Shown here one piece after another: positions 43,956 to 52,518 of a stretch of DNA of 64,000 nucleotides. Made by a program: the position numbers and the translations under genes. The notes below the pieces were generated by a model, which was not told where the DNA came from, ran no database searches, and saw nothing but the letters and a program-made list of their open reading frames with translations. Source of the stretch: Pirellulaceae bacterium (GTDB lineage Bacteria; Planctomycetota; Planctomycetia; Pirellulales; Pirellulaceae); contig JAQWSU010000045.1 of the NCBI GenBank assembly GCA_029243025.1, positions 62,001 to 126,000 on the forward strand, written 5' to 3'. Each line of letters opens with the position of its first letter. The first letter of the stretch is position 1.

Positions 43956-44265
43956 TCAAAGGAAATCCCCGTCTTTTGCCAGAAATCACTCGATTTGAAA
44001 CTTTCGCGGCGCCCCGTCCGGGCGGCGAGGAGCCGCATGAACCGGTGGCAAAAACAGGCTGTTTTTTTCTCTTTACGATATAATGCTCTCTGTAGAGCGC
44101 GACACGCAACCTTGTCACATTGCGACCAGGCGATGAGGATGAACCGCGGTTAAAACACCCGATGCAGCCCAATGAAATCCTCATTGATTCATGCTGTCAT
44201 CAACTTTTCAAAAACAGGTTTGCTGGGATTCGCCTTCAGGCAATCTGGCCAGGGAGACTTCAAGA
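43956..44265. other. Intergenic region before the third giant gene
   Basis: 310 bp. AAAAACA-GGC-TGTTTTT with a following T-run at 44050-44068 is a weak terminator-like element. The ribosome site AGGGAG (about 44251) for the next gene lies at the end. The frame is open upstream of the chosen start to 44191. Confidence 0.45.
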
Positions 44266-47200
44266 ATGGCGTATCTAACGGGTCGTCCATCGCGGCGTCA
44301 ACGACGTGCTGCATTCGTAGAAACGATGGAAGCGCGTGTCTTGCTCGCCGGTGACTTGGTGGGTCATTGGATTGCCGATGACCTCAACGCAGAGCTGGAC
44401 GATCAGGCAACCGTCAGCCGTTGGGCGGATTCGGTGAGCGGAATTGAAGGTTCTGCGATCGGACAACCAATACTCGCCAAAGGACAAATCGGCGGTCGTT
44501 CGGCAATTCGCTTTGAAACTTCGGATGGAGTCGATGCGATCAAGGTGGCCGGATCAGTCAGCCCGTTGCGAACAGCGGAAGACTTCTCGGTTTTCGCCAC
44601 CTTCCAGACAGACTCGTCGGAACTGCAGGGTGGTCGGGACGTTTGGTTTTCCAATTCGGGTCTCGTCGACGCCAACAGTCGAAACTTTGGCCGCGACTGG
44701 GGTTTGTCGATCAATCCAGAGGGAGCTATTTCAGCAGGGATTGGCACCTCGTTTGGCGCGTCGGCTAACGTCTATTCTGACGTATCGGGTTTGAACGATG
44801 GACAAATGCACGTTGCCACATTAACACGTAGCGGCGATACGCTGACGCTTTACGTGGATGGTAATGTTGCGGGCTCCACCGCAGATGGTGTTGCAGGCCC
44901 TCTCTCACCGATCGACACCATGTTTGGCAACACATCCTCGTCGGGCGACGTCGGTTTCGATGGTGATATTGCCGAGATCCGCATGTACAACGGTGCGTTG
45001 ACGTCTACCGAAGTCAGCAACGTGATTGCCGAAGTCAACTCCTATTACGCAAATGCTAAACCCCAAGCCACGCCGGATGCATATACGGTGGCGGAAGACA
45101 GCGATTTCTTCTTGAACTTCTTCCCAGCGGATCAGGGAGTGCTCGCGAACGATACCGATGCGGACGGCGATCCGCTCACTGCCACCGTGATCGAAACAAC
45201 ACAACACGGCACACTTACATTTCAAGCCGACGGATCGTTTTTCTATCTCCCCGACTCGAACTTTTTCGGCACTGACACGTTCACCTATGTGGCAGAAGAT
45301 TTCCGAGCATCCGAACCAACGACGGTGACTATGAATGTGTCACCCGTCTACGATCCTGCCCTTCCCGTATCGGATCGTTACAAGATGTTATCCGGAACGC
45401 TGCTCACGGTTGGGACAGAGACGGGACTCCTTGCGAACGACCTAAACATTGACGAAGCCGACCTCAAGGTCGTGCTTGAACGAACCGTTAGCCGTGGTTC
45501 ATTGTCGTTGTTGGATGATGGATCTTTTGATTATGACCCACAAGGGGCGTTCGGGATTGAAACGTTTGCGTACCGAATCGATGATGGCACGAACATCTCG
45601 AATTCTGTCGAGGTCACCATTCTGATCAACAGTCCGCCGATTGCAAATGATGATCAGTTCATGATCTCAGAAGACGTTGCCTTAAACACAGGCATCGATG
45701 CGGGTGTGACGCAAAATGATATCGATGCCGAATCGGATCCTTTCACCGTCACGTTGTTGTCGGAACCGGAGTTCGGCACATTGTCGCTCAGCGAAAATGG
45801 GGCCGTCTCCTACACCCCCAATGCCAATTACTACGGAGATGATTCTTTTACTTACCAACTGAGTGACGGCGAAGACCTTTCCAATGTGGCTACGGCAACC
45901 ATCACGGTCCAAGCTGTAAATGACGCCCCTAGCCCGGAAAAAGACGTTTACTTTGGCCTATCCGGTCAGACGATTGAGATCGCTGCAGGGTCGGGAGTCC
46001 TTGCCAATGACATCGACGTTGAAGGCGGCACCTTGACCGCCACGCTGGTCTCCGGTCCGACCCAGGGAAGTGTCGAATTCAATAGCGATGGCTCCTTCGC
46101 CTATCAGGCACCCGCTGGCTTCACCGGATTAGCAACGTTCACCTACTCGGTCTCAGACGGCCAAACGAATTCCCAGCCCACCGAGGTTGAGATCGCCATC
46201 AATTCGCTGGTACAGCAGCAACAGATCCTGATTAACGAAATCCATATCGATCCCCCGGTGAAGACAGAGATCGTTGAATTCGTTGAATTGTACAACCAAG
46301 GTGATGTCCCTGTAGACGTTTCCGACTGGACCATTCGAGATGGCATCGGCTTCCGATTCCCAGCCGGTTCTTCGGTCGAACCGGGGGGATACTTGGTGGT
46401 TGCGATGGACCCGCAGATGTTCCAATCAAAGTTCAAAAAGCCGGCGATTGGCCCTTGGGAGGGCAAGCTCAATAACTCAGGGGAAACCATCGAATTGTGG
46501 AGTGCGGGCGGCGATCGCATCGATCGAGTTGATTACAACGTTGGATTTCCCTGGCCGTCAGTCGGTGAGGAACCCGGACCATCAATTCAGTTAATTCACC
46601 CTGCTCTCGAAAATGACATCGGTGGTAGCTGGCGTTCCGCGGCACCAACACCTGGTGCTAAGAACTCCGTCTTTGCGGAGAATGCTGCACCACAGATGAG
46701 GCAAATCAACCACTCGCCTGAACAGCCGACAGCAGAAGATGCCGTGACGATTACGACTTACGTCACCGACCCGTCCGGCATCCAAAACGTAACGCTGGAG
46801 TATCAGCTCGTTGATCCAGGTAATTATTTCAGCCTGAGCGATGCACGCTACAAGACCAGTTGGACCAGTGTTGCGATGTTGGATGACGGCCAAAATGGTG
46901 ACGCAACAGCCGCCGACAACATCTACACCGCTGTCTTACCGGCCGAACTCCAAACTCATCGAAGACTGGTGCGTTATCGCATCACTTCAACCGACACTGC
47001 AGGAGCATCGATCACCGCACCGTATGCTGACGATCTGCAACCCAATTTCGCCTACTTCGTCTACAACGGCATTCCTGATTGGACAGCGGCCGATCGCCCC
47101 GGCCGTACACCCGATGTGACCTACGATAGCGAATTGCTCAACAGCGTACCCGTCTATCAATTGATTACCACGAAAGACTCCCACCTCGATTCACAATACA

Positions 47201-49767
47201 TTCCCGACTCGTCCCGTCGCGGTGGATACAGCGGCAGCGATTACCTCTGGGAAGGCACGATGGTCTATGACGGCGTCGTCTATGACCACATCCATTATCG
47301 TGCCCGCGGTGGAGTGTGGCGCTACGCGATGGGTAAAAACATGTGGAAGTTCGATTTCAATCGCGGACATCGCTTCCAAGCTCGAGATGATTACGGGAGC
47401 AAGTACGATACAAAATGGGACAAGCTGAATTTCTCATCGGTGGTTCAACAGGGTGATTTCCAACATCGGGGCGAGCAGGGGCTGTTCGAATCCGTCGGAT
47501 TCAAACTGTTCAACCTTGCCGGCACAGAAAGCCCCAACACCAATTATGTTCATTTCCGAATCATTGAAAGCGCCAACGAGCAGGGCGCCGACCAATACAG
47601 TACTGACTTCCAAGGTATGTACCTGGCGATTGAACAGCCAGACGGCCAGTTCTTAGATGAGCACGATCTGCCCGACGGAAACTTTTACAAGATCGAGGGC
47701 AACAATCCTGAGTCAACGACGAACCAAGGCCCCTATCAAGTGGATGATCGCTCGGATGGAAAATCTTTCATCCGCGAATTCCGTGGTGGCAAACGCCCTA
47801 CGGTCGAATGGTGGAAAGACAATCTCAACCTGGAAAAATACTACACCTACCAAACGATCTCGCATGCCATCCATCATTACGATACGGCCTTTGGCAAAAA
47901 TTTCTTCTACTACAACAACCCGGAAACGGGACTGTGGGAGATCCACCCTTGGGATCTCGATCTAACCTGGGCCGACAACATGTACGGCAATGAAAACCAC
48001 GAGTTCAATGTGAAGGTCGCAAAGAACAACGATTTCAATGACTACACACTCCAGGCCAACATCGATCTCAAAAACCGACTCAACCGGGACTACCAAAACA
48101 GCGCTCGTGAGATCCTTGATTTGCTTTTCAACCAAGAGCAAACGGGAATGCTGATTGATGAAATGGCAAGTTTCGTTTATCAGCCAGGAGAACAATCTTT
48201 CGTCGACGCCGACCGTGCCATGTGGGATTACAACCCTGTCAACGCGCAGAACTCCAAATACAGCAACAGCAGCAAAAATGCATCGCGTTGGAAGTATTAC
48301 CAAAAGGCAAGCAGTAAAGACTACCCTGGAATGATCAAGATCCTAAAGGATTACGTTGACAAACGAAACAAATTCATCACCGATCGCATCCTGACCAACG
48401 AAGAGAATATTCCGACCACGCCCACCATCAGCTACGCCGGGGAGGCTGGATTCCCCGTCAGCGATTTGACTTTCCAAACCTCGACGTTTGCCAGTCCAGT
48501 TAACGCTGAATTCGCCGCAATGGAGTGGCGAATTTCAGAGATCACCGACCCGTCAGTTCCTGGGTTCGATCGCTACAACCGAACTGCACCTCGAAAATAT
48601 GAAATCGAATCGACCTGGGAAAGTGGTGAGCTGGATGCCTTCGCCGATACGATCAGCATTCCCTCGCAGCATGTAGAAGCGGGCAAACAGTATCGCGTTC
48701 GAGTACGAATGATGGACAACGATCAACACTGGAGTCATTGGTCGGATCCCGCTCAGTTCGTAACCTCGGCAGACGTTGCTCCCGAGCTGGCGAATTCACT
48801 GCGAATCAGTGAGATCAACTACAATCCGTATGCGGCTACCGCTGCCGAGAAAGCGGCGGGGCATACGAGCAACGAAGATTTTGAATTCATCGAACTGATC
48901 AACATTGGCGATCAATCGATTGATCTTACACCCGCATCGCTGGAACAAATTGAAACGGACACAGGAGACCAGGGCGTTAATTTCACCTTTGCCGAGGGCA
49001 ACGTGACGTCGCTCGCTCCGGGCGAACGCGTCCTGGTAGTAGAAGATGTGAATGCGTTCAAGTCTCGCTACGGCAGCGATTTACCAATCGCCGGCAGTTG
49101 GGGGGGACGACTCAGCAACGATTCGGAACAGATTACCTTGTCTGCTTTTGGAACAACCATTCAACAATTCAGCTACCAAGACGAATGGTATCCGTCGACC
49201 GATGGCGACGGATACACGCTTGAAATCGTCGATGCCAATCAATCGGATCTCAATCAATGGTCGGCGAACACAGGCTGGAAGGCCAGTTCAGTCCAGGGAG
49301 GCACACCCGGCAAGGGTGCTGACGAACGCCTTCCCGGTGATGTAAACGGCGACGGTTTGTTCAATTCATCTGACCTGGTGGCCGTCTTCCAGCTCGGTCA
49401 ATACGAAGATGGGATCGCCGGCAATTCGGGCTTCGGTCAAGGTGATTGGAACGGTGACGGCGAATTCGACTCAACTGATTTCGTCTACGTATTTCAACTG
49501 GGCGTCTATTCGGCCGGCGCCTCTCCCGTTAGTTCGCTTGAAAATCAAGATCTGGCCGCAGCCCTGCAGGGGAATCGTGAATCTTCACGCGGCGAGAACT
49601 CGACTGGCGAACTTCGGGCACCAACTCTGACGACAAATCGCCGACCCGTCGCGATTGATTCGGTCTCCGCGCTTGATCAGATATTCGACGATTTGGACTT
49701 TGAACGGGAATCAGTAAAGACGACGGACCTGCTGACAGACGATGAAGACTTTGGGCTCGTTTTTTAG
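44266..49767 (+). CDS. Giant LEPR-XLL protein with LamG, cadherin-like, lamin-tail, CotH and dockerin domains
   Basis: A 1833-aa secreted protein. I chose the ATG at 44266 because AGGGAG lies about 9 nt upstream and it directly precedes the basic stretch and 'VETMEARVLLAGD'. Approximate order: LamG-type lectin domain (30-270, 'LVGHWIADDLNAELDDQ'), four cadherin-like/tandem-95 repeats (270-650, 'GVLANDTDADGDPLTATVIE', 'PDSNFFGTDTFTYVAEDF'), lamin-tail domain (650-790), Ig-like linker, CotH-like domain (about 960-1380, 'YLAIEQPDGQFLDEHDL', 'WEIHPWDLDLTWADN'), second lamin-tail domain (1530-1690), dockerin repeats (1695-1770, 'GDVNGDGLFNSSDLVAVF'). It ends 'ALDQIFDDLDFERE'. The CotH part is only distantly similar to those of the two preceding genes. 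A sulfatase gene starts 52 bp downstream. Confidence 0.88.
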   Translation: MAYLTGRPSRRQRRAAFVETMEARVLLAGDLVGHWIADDLNAELDDQATVSRWADSVSGIEGSAIGQPILAKGQIGGRSAIRFETSDGVDAIKVAGSVSPLRTAEDFSVFATFQTDSSELQGGRDVWFSNSGLVDANSRNFGRDWGLSINPEGAISAGIGTSFGASANVYSDVSGLNDGQMHVATLTRSGDTLTLYVDGNVAGSTADGVAGPLSPIDTMFGNTSSSGDVGFDGDIAEIRMYNGALTSTEVSNVIAEVNSYYANAKPQATPDAYTVAEDSDFFLNFFPADQGVLANDTDADGDPLTATVIETTQHGTLTFQADGSFFYLPDSNFFGTDTFTYVAEDFRASEPTTVTMNVSPVYDPALPVSDRYKMLSGTLLTVGTETGLLANDLNIDEADLKVVLERTVSRGSLSLLDDGSFDYDPQGAFGIETFAYRIDDGTNISNSVEVTILINSPPIANDDQFMISEDVALNTGIDAGVTQNDIDAESDPFTVTLLSEPEFGTLSLSENGAVSYTPNANYYGDDSFTYQLSDGEDLSNVATATITVQAVNDAPSPEKDVYFGLSGQTIEIAAGSGVLANDIDVEGGTLTATLVSGPTQGSVEFNSDGSFAYQAPAGFTGLATFTYSVSDGQTNSQPTEVEIAINSLVQQQQILINEIHIDPPVKTEIVEFVELYNQGDVPVDVSDWTIRDGIGFRFPAGSSVEPGGYLVVAMDPQMFQSKFKKPAIGPWEGKLNNSGETIELWSAGGDRIDRVDYNVGFPWPSVGEEPGPSIQLIHPALENDIGGSWRSAAPTPGAKNSVFAENAAPQMRQINHSPEQPTAEDAVTITTYVTDPSGIQNVTLEYQLVDPGNYFSLSDARYKTSWTSVAMLDDGQNGDATAADNIYTAVLPAELQTHRRLVRYRITSTDTAGASITAPYADDLQPNFAYFVYNGIPDWTAADRPGRTPDVTYDSELLNSVPVYQLITTKDSHLDSQYIPDSSRRGGYSGSDYLWEGTMVYDGVVYDHIHYRARGGVWRYAMGKNMWKFDFNRGHRFQARDDYGSKYDTKWDKLNFSSVVQQGDFQHRGEQGLFESVGFKLFNLAGTESPNTNYVHFRIIESANEQGADQYSTDFQGMYLAIEQPDGQFLDEHDLPDGNFYKIEGNNPESTTNQGPYQVDDRSDGKSFIREFRGGKRPTVEWWKDNLNLEKYYTYQTISHAIHHYDTAFGKNFFYYNNPETGLWEIHPWDLDLTWADNMYGNENHEFNVKVAKNNDFNDYTLQANIDLKNRLNRDYQNSAREILDLLFNQEQTGMLIDEMASFVYQPGEQSFVDADRAMWDYNPVNAQNSKYSNSSKNASRWKYYQKASSKDYPGMIKILKDYVDKRNKFITDRILTNEENIPTTPTISYAGEAGFPVSDLTFQTSTFASPVNAEFAAMEWRISEITDPSVPGFDRYNRTAPRKYEIESTWESGELDAFADTISIPSQHVEAGKQYRVRVRMMDNDQHWSHWSDPAQFVTSADVAPELANSLRISEINYNPYAATAAEKAAGHTSNEDFEFIELINIGDQSIDLTPASLEQIETDTGDQGVNFTFAEGNVTSLAPGERVLVVEDVNAFKSRYGSDLPIAGSWGGRLSNDSEQITLSAFGTTIQQFSYQDEWYPSTDGDGYTLEIVDANQSDLNQWSANTGWKASSVQGGTPGKGADERLPGDVNGDGLFNSSDLVAVFQLGQYEDGIAGNSGFGQGDWNGDGEFDSTDFVYVFQLGVYSAGASPVSSLENQDLAAALQGNRESSRGENSTGELRAPTLTTNRRPVAIDSVSALDQIFDDLDFERESVKTTDLLTDDEDFGLVF

Positions 49768-51420: not shown

Positions 51421-52518
51421 TCAAACCGAACCCAACAATTCGAGTTCAAGCGGTGCGTTTGAAACGGTCGTGCTCGCGACTTGCCTTAATGGCGAATTTT
51501 TTTCGTCATCTTCAACGACCAATTCCAGGGCCGCTGCCATCTCATCGCGTTGAAATACGCGGTCGACGGACTGAGCAGCCAATGTTGGAACGTGGCCGCT
51601 ATCAGCTAGAGAGCCATTATCCAGTTGCAAATCAACAGGTGATGCGTCCAAGGCGTTTTCACCCTCACCCTCGTCAACATTTGTTTTGTTCAGTTCGTTC
51701 AACACCAACAAAGCATCAAGCGGTTCCACGAATCGATTGTCATTCGTATCGAAATAAACCGTTACCTCACCGCTGGGCGTCCCCAATTCGCGAGCCCCTG
51801 CGTTGTTCAACTCATTGATGACGAGCAGTGCATCCAGTGGTGATATAAACGAGTCCGCATTGACATCCAAAGGGTTGTCAGCGTTGTGCCAAGGGTTCGC
51901 TTGCGATTCACTCGCTGCGTCCACAAACAACTGTCGCAGCTCGGCATAATTCTCCGAATCGCTCAGATTGTTGCTCGTTAGATTGTAGGTGGTGACAACT
52001 TCGTTGTTCTCATCGATGATCACAACATCACGAAATTCGTAATCCCAACTGTTCAAGTAAACATCCGATCTTCCGTCTTCGTCATCATCCAGATCTTGAA
52101 CCCAAGAAATGTCACGGCCATCGGTAATGCTTGAGTTGCCTAGTTCATGCCCTCGCTCGTTAACGCCGATAATGTCGATCTCAAGATCACTGTAATCGAG
52201 ATCAAGTTCTTTCTGGATCTGATCAAGGTAGCCAAACTGGCTACTGCAGTAGCCTCACGTTGCATGCCCAAAATACCACCCCGAGACCTGCCCAAGATAG
52301 TCACGAGGTGAAATCGATTGATTGAATCGACTGGAGGTGGCATTCACGTCAAGTAACGAAAAGTCGGGGACCAACTCCCCTTCACCTTCCGCGACTAATT
52401 GCACTTCGGCAACATCGCCTCCATGTAACATCTCGCGAGCCTCCAGGCTCTCAACGGCGAGGACTGAACTCCTTGATCCGGCCAATTTTGGTTTACATTG
52501 GGTCCACGGCAGGCGCAC
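51421..52518 (-). CDS. LEPR-XLL redoxin-dockerin selenoprotein (in-frame TGA at 52257-52255)
   Basis: Two frames that look like separate genes join in the same frame across one TGA into a 365-aa protein. A GTG start at 52518 has GGAG 10 nt upstream. The N-terminus has the LEPR-XLL-type motif 'VESLEAREMLHGGD'. A redoxin/thioredoxin-like domain (about residues 45-190) contains 'PDFSLLDVNATSSRF', 'RDYLGQVSGWYFGHAT-U-GYC', where U88 and Cys91 form a UxxC motif, then 'LEIDIIGVNERGHELG' and 'FRDVVIIDENNEVVTTYNL'. Dockerin-type repeats follow (about 195-270: 'DVNADSFISPLDALLVINEL', 'DTNDNRFVEPLDALLVLNEL'). The C-terminal tail contains 'SVDRVFQRDEM'. A hairpin lies just after the TGA. If the TGA were a true stop, the redoxin would be cut in mid-fold. 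The alternative is a pseudogene or sequencing error, but conserved coding continues for 277 codons. Confidence 0.84.
52228..52254 (-). promoter_or_regulatory. Bacterial SECIS-like hairpin(s)
   Basis: On the minus strand, GTAGCC-AGTTT-GGCTAC (52244 down to 52228) forms a 6-bp stem with a 5-nt loop whose second base is G; the loop starts 16 nt after the UGA. This is at the short end of the known spacing for bacterial SECIS elements. An overlapping perfect palindrome, GGCTACTGCAGTAGCC (52254 to 52239), directly follows the UGA and could compete or form a longer structure. Confidence 0.65.
52255..52257 (-). other. In-frame UGA, proposed selenocysteine codon (U88)
   Basis: GCA-ACG-TGA-GGC-TAC-TGC encodes A-T-U-G-Y-C. 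The UGA takes the place of the first Cys of a thioredoxin-fold CxxC, right after the beta-strand 'SGWYFGHAT' that precedes the active site in redoxins. Confidence 0.84.

Follow-up and report, generated by a model that had tools for sequence, protein, structure and literature searches.

A likely selenocysteine redoxin with a LEPR-XLL-like start and dockerin repeats in a Pirellulaceae bacterium

A single gene on the minus strand of the window, by which we mean the whole 64,000-nucleotide stretch of Pirellulaceae DNA analysed here, runs from 52518 to 51421 across an internal TGA, and this TGA almost certainly encodes selenocysteine (Sec); the residue lies in the active site of a redox protein that resembles thioredoxin and is probably exported. 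We consider it highly probable that the product is an exported Sec redoxin, made under the direction of a SECIS hairpin, held at the surface by its LEPR-XLL-like and dockerin parts, and engaged in thiol/selenol-disulfide chemistry of the ResA/TlpA kind. In the mechanism that we propose, SelB and tRNA-Sec would decode UGA 52257-52255 as selenocysteine, guided by the hairpin at 52244-52228, and the chain would be exported via its LEPR-XLL-like N-terminus and retained on the surface of the cell or close to it, where the paired dockerins, stabilised by calcium, would serve for binding or anchoring. U88 would there attack an oxidised substrate, a disulfide or some other, C91 (C8 being the one further cysteine) would resolve the bond to give a U88-C91 selenenylsulfide, and an electron donor would then reduce this selenenylsulfide.

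The gene and its parts

51421-52518, minus strand: whole selenoprotein gene of 365 codons, with a GTG start at 52518 and a terminal TGA at 51423-51421 (profile match spanning the internal TGA)
52255-52257, minus strand: in-frame TGA, almost certainly selenocysteine U88, first residue of UGYC (same TGA in relatives)
52228-52244, minus strand: predicted SECIS hairpin with a 7-bp stem GUAGCCA/UGGCUAC and the loop GUU at 52237-52235 (covariation, spacing, folding)
51916-52371, minus strand: predicted thioredoxin-fold redoxin domain, residues 50-201, with the UxxC site U88/C91 (NF053656, structural model, ResA/TlpA fold)
52420-52464, minus strand: degenerate LEPR-XLL-like N-terminal motif, residues 19-33, around LEAREML (PF07595 below cut-off; motifs in relatives)
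51688-51867, minus strand: type I dockerin with two calcium-loop repeats, residues 218-277 (Dockerin_1, E 6.4e-10)

The joined frame consists of 87 codons, the TGA at 52257-52255 and an open frame down to 51423-51421, giving 365 residues that read ...YFGHAT-U-GYC... around the internal codon. Upstream of the GTG only two sense codons (Pro, Ile) follow an in-frame stop, so that no ATG, GTG or TTG lies further upstream, and a GGAG precedes the start by 10 nt. The NCBIfam model NF053656 matches residues 50-201, on both sides of the TGA and over its full profile (1-146), with 204.1 bits (E 9e-61) against a curated cut-off of 100 bits, which bears out the view of the preliminary description that the two frames are one gene. 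The dockerin repeats it had named are equally well founded, with the best stretch of Dockerin_1 (PF00404) at 39.5 bits, above the gathering score of 22.9; Pfam Redoxin (PF08534) reaches 17.5 bits, below its gathering score of 26.6. C8, U88 and C91 are the only thiol or selenol residues in the chain.

Of the LEPR-XLL export motif proposed earlier there is a motif-like stretch (VESLEAREML, a degenerate LEPR-XLL) with a weak Pfam match: PF07595 (Planc_extracel, LEPR-XLL) gave 15.3 bits (E 0.016) against a cut-off of 25.5 when the N-terminal piece was scored alone, and was absent from the match list when the whole protein was searched. Three relatives also score below 25.5 bits (L005 13.5, L007 15.7 and L008 20.3), and the LEPR-like motifs of relatives read LESRTLL, LEGRHLL, LESRALL and LELRAMM. 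L007 is a second gene of the family in the window's own genome, on contig 26, and a search of one further genome from the genus gave three family places, two of them near-copies. L005 and L006 (genome G001) differ by one residue and lie on separate contigs, through recent duplication or an assembly effect; L006, the near-copy of L005, was excluded from alignments A1 and A2 and from the tree.

The suggestion of a new selenoprotein family fails, because NCBI already has the domain: NF053656 (redoxin_TUGYCR, 'TUGYCR motif thioredoxin fold (seleno)protein') is part of NCBIfam release 20.0 (June 2026). Of the TUGYCR signature the window protein contains T-U-G-Y-C, followed by Ser instead of Arg, as in many relatives.

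Predicted fold and chemistry

With the window domain and 67 relatives, AlphaFold2 gave a mean pLDDT of 92.6 and a pTM of 0.88. Foldseek placed a Bacteroides disulfide isomerase, ResA and a DsbE-type protein in its top ranks, while VIA-align gave ResA a Z of 16.9 (135 residues aligned at rmsd 2.1), against 14.5-15.4 for peroxiredoxins and 15.2 for yeast Sco1, and on this model the predicted fold is nearest ResA/TlpA. Searched by sequence, the PDB yielded nothing better than E 0.05 with the single query and a best E of 0.24 with the profile. U88 and C91 are invariant in all rows of alignments A1 (TGA rows only) and A3 (a structure alignment of the window and 67 of 78 related TGA loci), an invariance that for U is partly by choice because the rows were selected for TGA.

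The most likely function predicted from the model is that of a surface or envelope thiol/selenol-disulfide oxidoreductase. The motif of peroxiredoxins is PxxxT/SxxC, and it is absent here, G-H-A-T preceding U88 with His at the third residue before it; this absence, together with the two-residue UxxC spacing, would favour disulfide exchange over a peroxiredoxin cycle. An Arg (R163) is aligned against the cis-Pro of the thioredoxin fold in the sole alignment that reaches there, a weak one (2lrn, E 0.24), and the hhalign alignment to a TlpA-like protein ends before that position; disulfide exchange in the usual manner is therefore not assured. Peroxiredoxins keep an active-site Arg at about the cis-Pro position, and this one alignment, the peroxiredoxin chains in the structure list and the sub-cut-off Pfam matches to Redoxin (window protein) and AhpC-TSA (relatives) would all suit a Sec protein that reduces peroxide in the manner of a peroxiredoxin instead of exchanging thiols and disulfides. 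We regard this as unlikely, since the residue three before U88 is His, not Thr or Ser, ResA/TlpA-type chains top both structure lists, and the UxxC spacing is typical of thiol-disulfide exchangers.

Metal binding by Sec-x-x-Cys in place of disulfide turnover, with a toxic metal or with copper on the model of SCO1/SenC, appears improbable. Relatives show weak SCO1-SenC matches (E 0.0009-0.008, below cut-off), and yeast and human Sco1 and BsSco are found among the structure matches, but SCO proteins have CxxxC plus a distal His, whereas the spacing here is UxxC, and Sco1 at Z 15.2 stands below ResA at 16.9.

Selenocysteine decoding and the downstream hairpin

The genome contains the machinery for Sec, namely selA (570 bits), selB (365 bits) adjoining selA, selD (352 bits) and a tRNA-Sec with the anticodon tca (64.7 bits, ARAGORN). 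Because the selD gene (L062, G000:C60:108592-109518) has an in-frame TGA of its own, SelD is probably a selenoprotein in this genome. TGA also terminates 7 of the 23 long frames of the window and the present gene at its 3' end; as an ordinary stop elsewhere, it shows that the code is not altered throughout the genome, and genome-wide recoding of TGA was rejected on this ground.

Among NF053656 domains over cut-off, TGA was present in 16 of 19 in the draw from the window's phylum (from 15 of 392 genomes) and in 57 of 66 in that from the phylum of Plesiocystis (from 55 of 377 genomes, with the split row of G539 counted once to give 66 rows), counts that include the non-blindly drawn centre genomes G000 and G393 and become 14/17 and 56/65 without them. 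U stands at the first UxxC position in every TGA domain of both draws (16/16 and 57/57). The three non-TGA domains in the window's phylum are two first tandem copies without active-site residues and one fragment, whose match begins at the resolving Cys; the nine in the phylum of Plesiocystis are eight Cys forms and one degenerate domain. Homologues with either Sec or Cys at residue 88, which the preliminary description had in view, were thus found, and in relatives the domain continues past the TGA rather than ending at residue 87. In 288 Verrucomicrobiota genomes, a match at E <= 1e-20 occurred in the centre genome only.

Searching the GTDB collection with a DNA pattern that places TGA in the active site retrieved 82 stretches, and the domain is encoded beyond the TGA in all except four of them (L072, L110, L134 and L152). 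The resulting 78 loci are distributed over Planctomycetota, Verrucomicrobiota, Myxococcota, Pseudomonadota, Krumholzibacteriota, Eiseniibacteriota, Latescibacterota and Gemmatimonadota (one locus each for the last two), with phyla taken from record titles, mostly of metagenome bins, plus ranks from the tree; the record for Plesiocystis pacifica SIR-1 (L073) contains the family. A sequencing error at 52255-52257 was rejected, since it cannot account for an identically placed TGA on 78 further contigs. A pattern with a Cys codon found 16 stretches and no relatives in the GTDB contig collection, which is no evidence of absence because Cys forms exist in the profile draws; viral contigs contained no relatives with the TGA or Cys pattern, and plasmids gave no match. 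Switching between Sec and Cys requires five changes on the quick tree, where gain and loss of Sec are indistinguishable: the tree is quick, the branch of L190 is long, and L039, used as outgroup, has a TGA of its own.

Several related sequences deserve mention in their own right. L026 and L027 (G213 and G064) contain tandem redoxin domains, SIYA/SLYA in the first and UGYC in the second, so arranged that the first copy is apparently dead beside a Sec copy. A sister redoxin group that includes L039 (G134:C44) stays under the NF053656 cut-off and has many rows with an in-frame TGA inside the match; two of its members were scanned and gave no better NCBIfam model, and L039 shows dockerin-like repeats by eye. 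In L048 (G237:C571), a TlpA-like protein, an in-frame TGA occupies the first active-site position (WGFW-U-GPC). L086 and L094, from records titled Akkermansia muciniphila and Pedosphaera, have an almost identical domain, and one of these two MAG names is probably wrong.

The window RNA GUAGCCA-GUU-UGGCUAC occupies nucleotides 11-27 downstream of the UGA, with 17 nt from the UGA to the 3-nt loop, or 16 nt if the closing A-U pair is counted into the loop, in keeping with the hairpin first described with its loop 16 nt downstream. It satisfies the bSECIS model (loop of 3-9 nt, stem of 4-16 bp, G within the first two loop positions, 16-37 nt from the UGA, MFE <= -7.5; PMC13188914) with its GUU loop, 7-bp stem, 17-nt spacing and -8.5 kcal/mol for the hairpin taken alone (17 nt), so that the SECIS element predicted after the TGA on the minus strand is supported both by these constraints and by covariation in 81 sequences. 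In the SECIS alignment A2, whose 81 rows are 77 of the 78 loci, the window, L005, L007 and L008, 94.7% of 567 cells are paired, versus 77.1% with shuffled partners and 28-41% with slides of one to three columns. Both partners have changed while still pairing in 91 cells, versus 24.6 in shuffles; five pairs show both-sided change, which 35 of 500 shuffles reached, and RNAalifold recovers the six outer pairs without guidance. The full set of six is present in 74 of the 81 Sec forms and in none of the eight Cys forms (pairs formed: 5, 4, 2, 3, 4, 4, 1 and 2); one Cys form, L182, keeps five of the six, contrary to expectation. At other in-frame positions of the 78 related genes (21,503 in all) the six pairs occur in 0.3%, against 74/81 at the TGA, and the hairpin is therefore not a matter of chance. 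The innermost pairs carry little information because the fetching pattern behind most of the 81 sequences fixed Gln and Phe/Tyr codon bases in or beside the loop, while the five outermost are free of this bias, with a conserved Gly codon constraining one side.

An outside set of 38 Sec domains, from the draw of the Plesiocystis phylum and neither fitting the fetching pattern nor included in the SECIS alignment, forms six pairs in 33 cases, five pairs in two cases and two pairs in three. These last three are a single subgroup (L246, L247 and L248, from G633, G562 and G724; ATUT[YF]CATQV), in which the shared hairpin is not formed in register and which may use another SECIS; the same three genomes also contain the Cys forms L185, L189 and L187. 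Synonymous codon shuffling, applied to 81 of the 82 sequences (L148 was too short and was excluded), gave a moderate energy signal (mean z -1.45; p <= 0.05 in 30/81), and for this reason the covariation test and the outside set carry the argument for a SECIS.

Within the 48 nt from the UGA of the window, the minimum-energy fold is a competing hairpin, GGCUAC/GUAGCC, and the SECIS hairpin appears as the centroid only; the two overlap because GGCTAC stands both before and after GTAGCC (52254-52239, minus strand), and the stability of the 48-mer exceeds that of its shuffles only slightly (z -0.54). L076 and L108 fold into the same competing hairpin as the window. Reading of UGA competes with termination at Sec codons in general, and the competing hairpin might suggest a selenium-dependent switch, with UGA read as Sec when selenium is plentiful and an 87-residue piece with its own role made otherwise; we give this very little credence, as residues 1-87 take in no more than the leader with its LEPR-like motif and the opening strands of the fold, and no family match is confined to them. 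That the TGA is a plain stop, in a pseudogene or behind an 87-residue product with chance downstream similarity, can practically be dismissed, since relatives across phyla share the TGA, an intact downstream domain and a covarying hairpin, and the genome has Sec machinery, even if gene callers would terminate the frame at residue 87 and TGA does serve as a stop in this genome. Selenocysteine at the first position of the redoxin active site (HAT-U-GY-C), as originally put forward, thus agrees both with the conservation of U88 in relatives and with the machinery present.

Surface attachment and relation to known systems

Export features were assigned by a simple rule of thumb in the 75 relatives with an intact 5' side (3 of the 78 loci lack it), and some such feature occurs in 66 of them: a lipobox after a hydrophobic stretch in 34, a hydrophobic signal-like stretch in 26 and a LEPR-like motif in 6, with none in the other 9. 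A PEP-CTERM tail was found in two relatives (L117 over the Pfam cut-off, L092 just under it), and an acidic DxDxDxLxDxW tail ends 17 of the 18 rows in a Verrucomicrobiota branch of the tree. Lipoprotein, signal-like, LEPR-like plus dockerin or PEP-CTERM ends are found among the relatives, most of which would therefore be exported. From these features we infer that the window protein works outside the cytoplasm, as the preliminary description supposed. Its export route, its surface location and the direction of its redox reaction are proposals, while computation shows the single gene, the conserved Sec codon, the covarying SECIS, the Sec machinery, the predicted fold and the UxxC pair.

The layout of the window protein, a LEPR-like motif plus dockerin, recurs in L005, L100, L108 and L114, is combined with Ig-like domains in L007 and L008, and appears again in L103 and L078, where the dockerin scores are below cut-off. 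The quick tree joins the window to L005 (SH-aLRT 92) and unites six LEPR rows in one group (83); three changes are needed for the LEPR label, and no starred set includes the window. In L124 (408-1814), a sequence stretch that ends inside the gene, a LEPR-like motif, a Sec redoxin and a cyclophilin prolyl isomerase (E 7.4e-39) share one frame, a fusion that hints at protein-folding work outside the cell. Cohesin (PF00963) had no match at E <= 0.001 in the window's own genome (about 96% complete), and a role in a cellulosome was rejected for that reason. Clustering of the frames flanking the 78 relatives revealed no conserved operon partner that would name a function; besides antisense shadow frames that overlie the gene, the only recurring neighbours are ABC-transporter ATPase-like, and because these recur in only seven loci at scattered distances, no operon partner is claimed.

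Exported bacterial selenoproteins are known in the form of periplasmic formate dehydrogenases; the present case would add a small Sec redoxin tied to many kinds of surface anchor, across many phyla. Because plain gene calling truncates such proteins at UGA, current counts of exported selenoproteins in these phyla are probably too low. The covarying SECIS could be used as a ready test element, and the Sec forms set against the few Cys forms offer a natural comparison within the family. Tentatively, and with rather less than even confidence, we suggest a large, mainly Sec-containing family of exported oxidoreductases that would act at the cell surface, in the oxidative folding or repair of large surface proteins, with a shared SECIS outliving divergence and anchors swapped by lineage. 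The hosts of this family might be Planctomycetota, Myxococcota, Verrucomicrobiota and several candidate phyla; its anchors could be lipid, LEPR/dockerin, PEP-CTERM and a calcium-loop tail, and the LEPR-redoxin-cyclophilin fusion might speak for its folding role. If this were true, surface selenium chemistry would be a common bacterial strategy and the Cys forms late replacements.

Although the domain family is already named at NCBI, its LEPR/dockerin surface-display layout was not found in print among the matches listed. In the same literature listings there was no paper on the TUGYCR domain or the LEPR/dockerin combination, and no description, again among the matches listed, of the domain's conserved RNA signal or varied surface anchoring; nor was the domain described among the matches listed for planctomycete, new-family, exported, secreted or periplasmic selenoproteins. 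A 2026 review (PMC13188914) includes among prokaryotic selenoproteins a 'Redoxin family protein' (PF08534, UxxC) and a 'Prx-like thiol:disulfide oxidoreductase' (PF00578, UxxC/UxxU), and its text has no NF05 accession, 'TUGYC', 'secreted' or 'periplasm'; by table description only, one of its redoxin-like entries may include the NF053656 family. Selenoproteins in two planctomycete genomes are reported in PMC4807772, where neither 'redoxin' nor 'dockerin' begins a word of the main text, and the main texts of PMC12013277, PMC2398784 and PMC5029168 have no 'redoxin' or 'Planctomycet'.

Compared with NF053656, the catalytic domain of the window protein is a member (204 bits versus a cut-off of 100), whereas NF053656 is a domain model whose name is silent on LEPR-XLL, dockerins, SECIS and export, and gives Arg where the window has Ser after UGYC. 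With ResA, TlpA and DsbE the protein shares its predicted fold, the two-residue spacing of the redox pair and, by inference, an extracytoplasmic place; unlike them it would have Sec for the first Cys, has about 20% identity to them, aligns Arg versus cis-Pro in a single weak alignment (E 0.24), and has no TlpA family model among its matches. The redoxin-like entries of PMC13188914, compared by table entries alone, are likewise Sec-containing with UxxC. The planctomycete LEPR-XLL/dockerin surface proteins (PF07595, PF00404) are alike in their N-terminal motif and dockerin pair, and the window's own genome has many matches to the dockerin part, while the frame at 44191-49767 of the window has a similar start, MEARVLL; unlike these proteins, the one described here would carry a redox selenoenzyme as its cargo.
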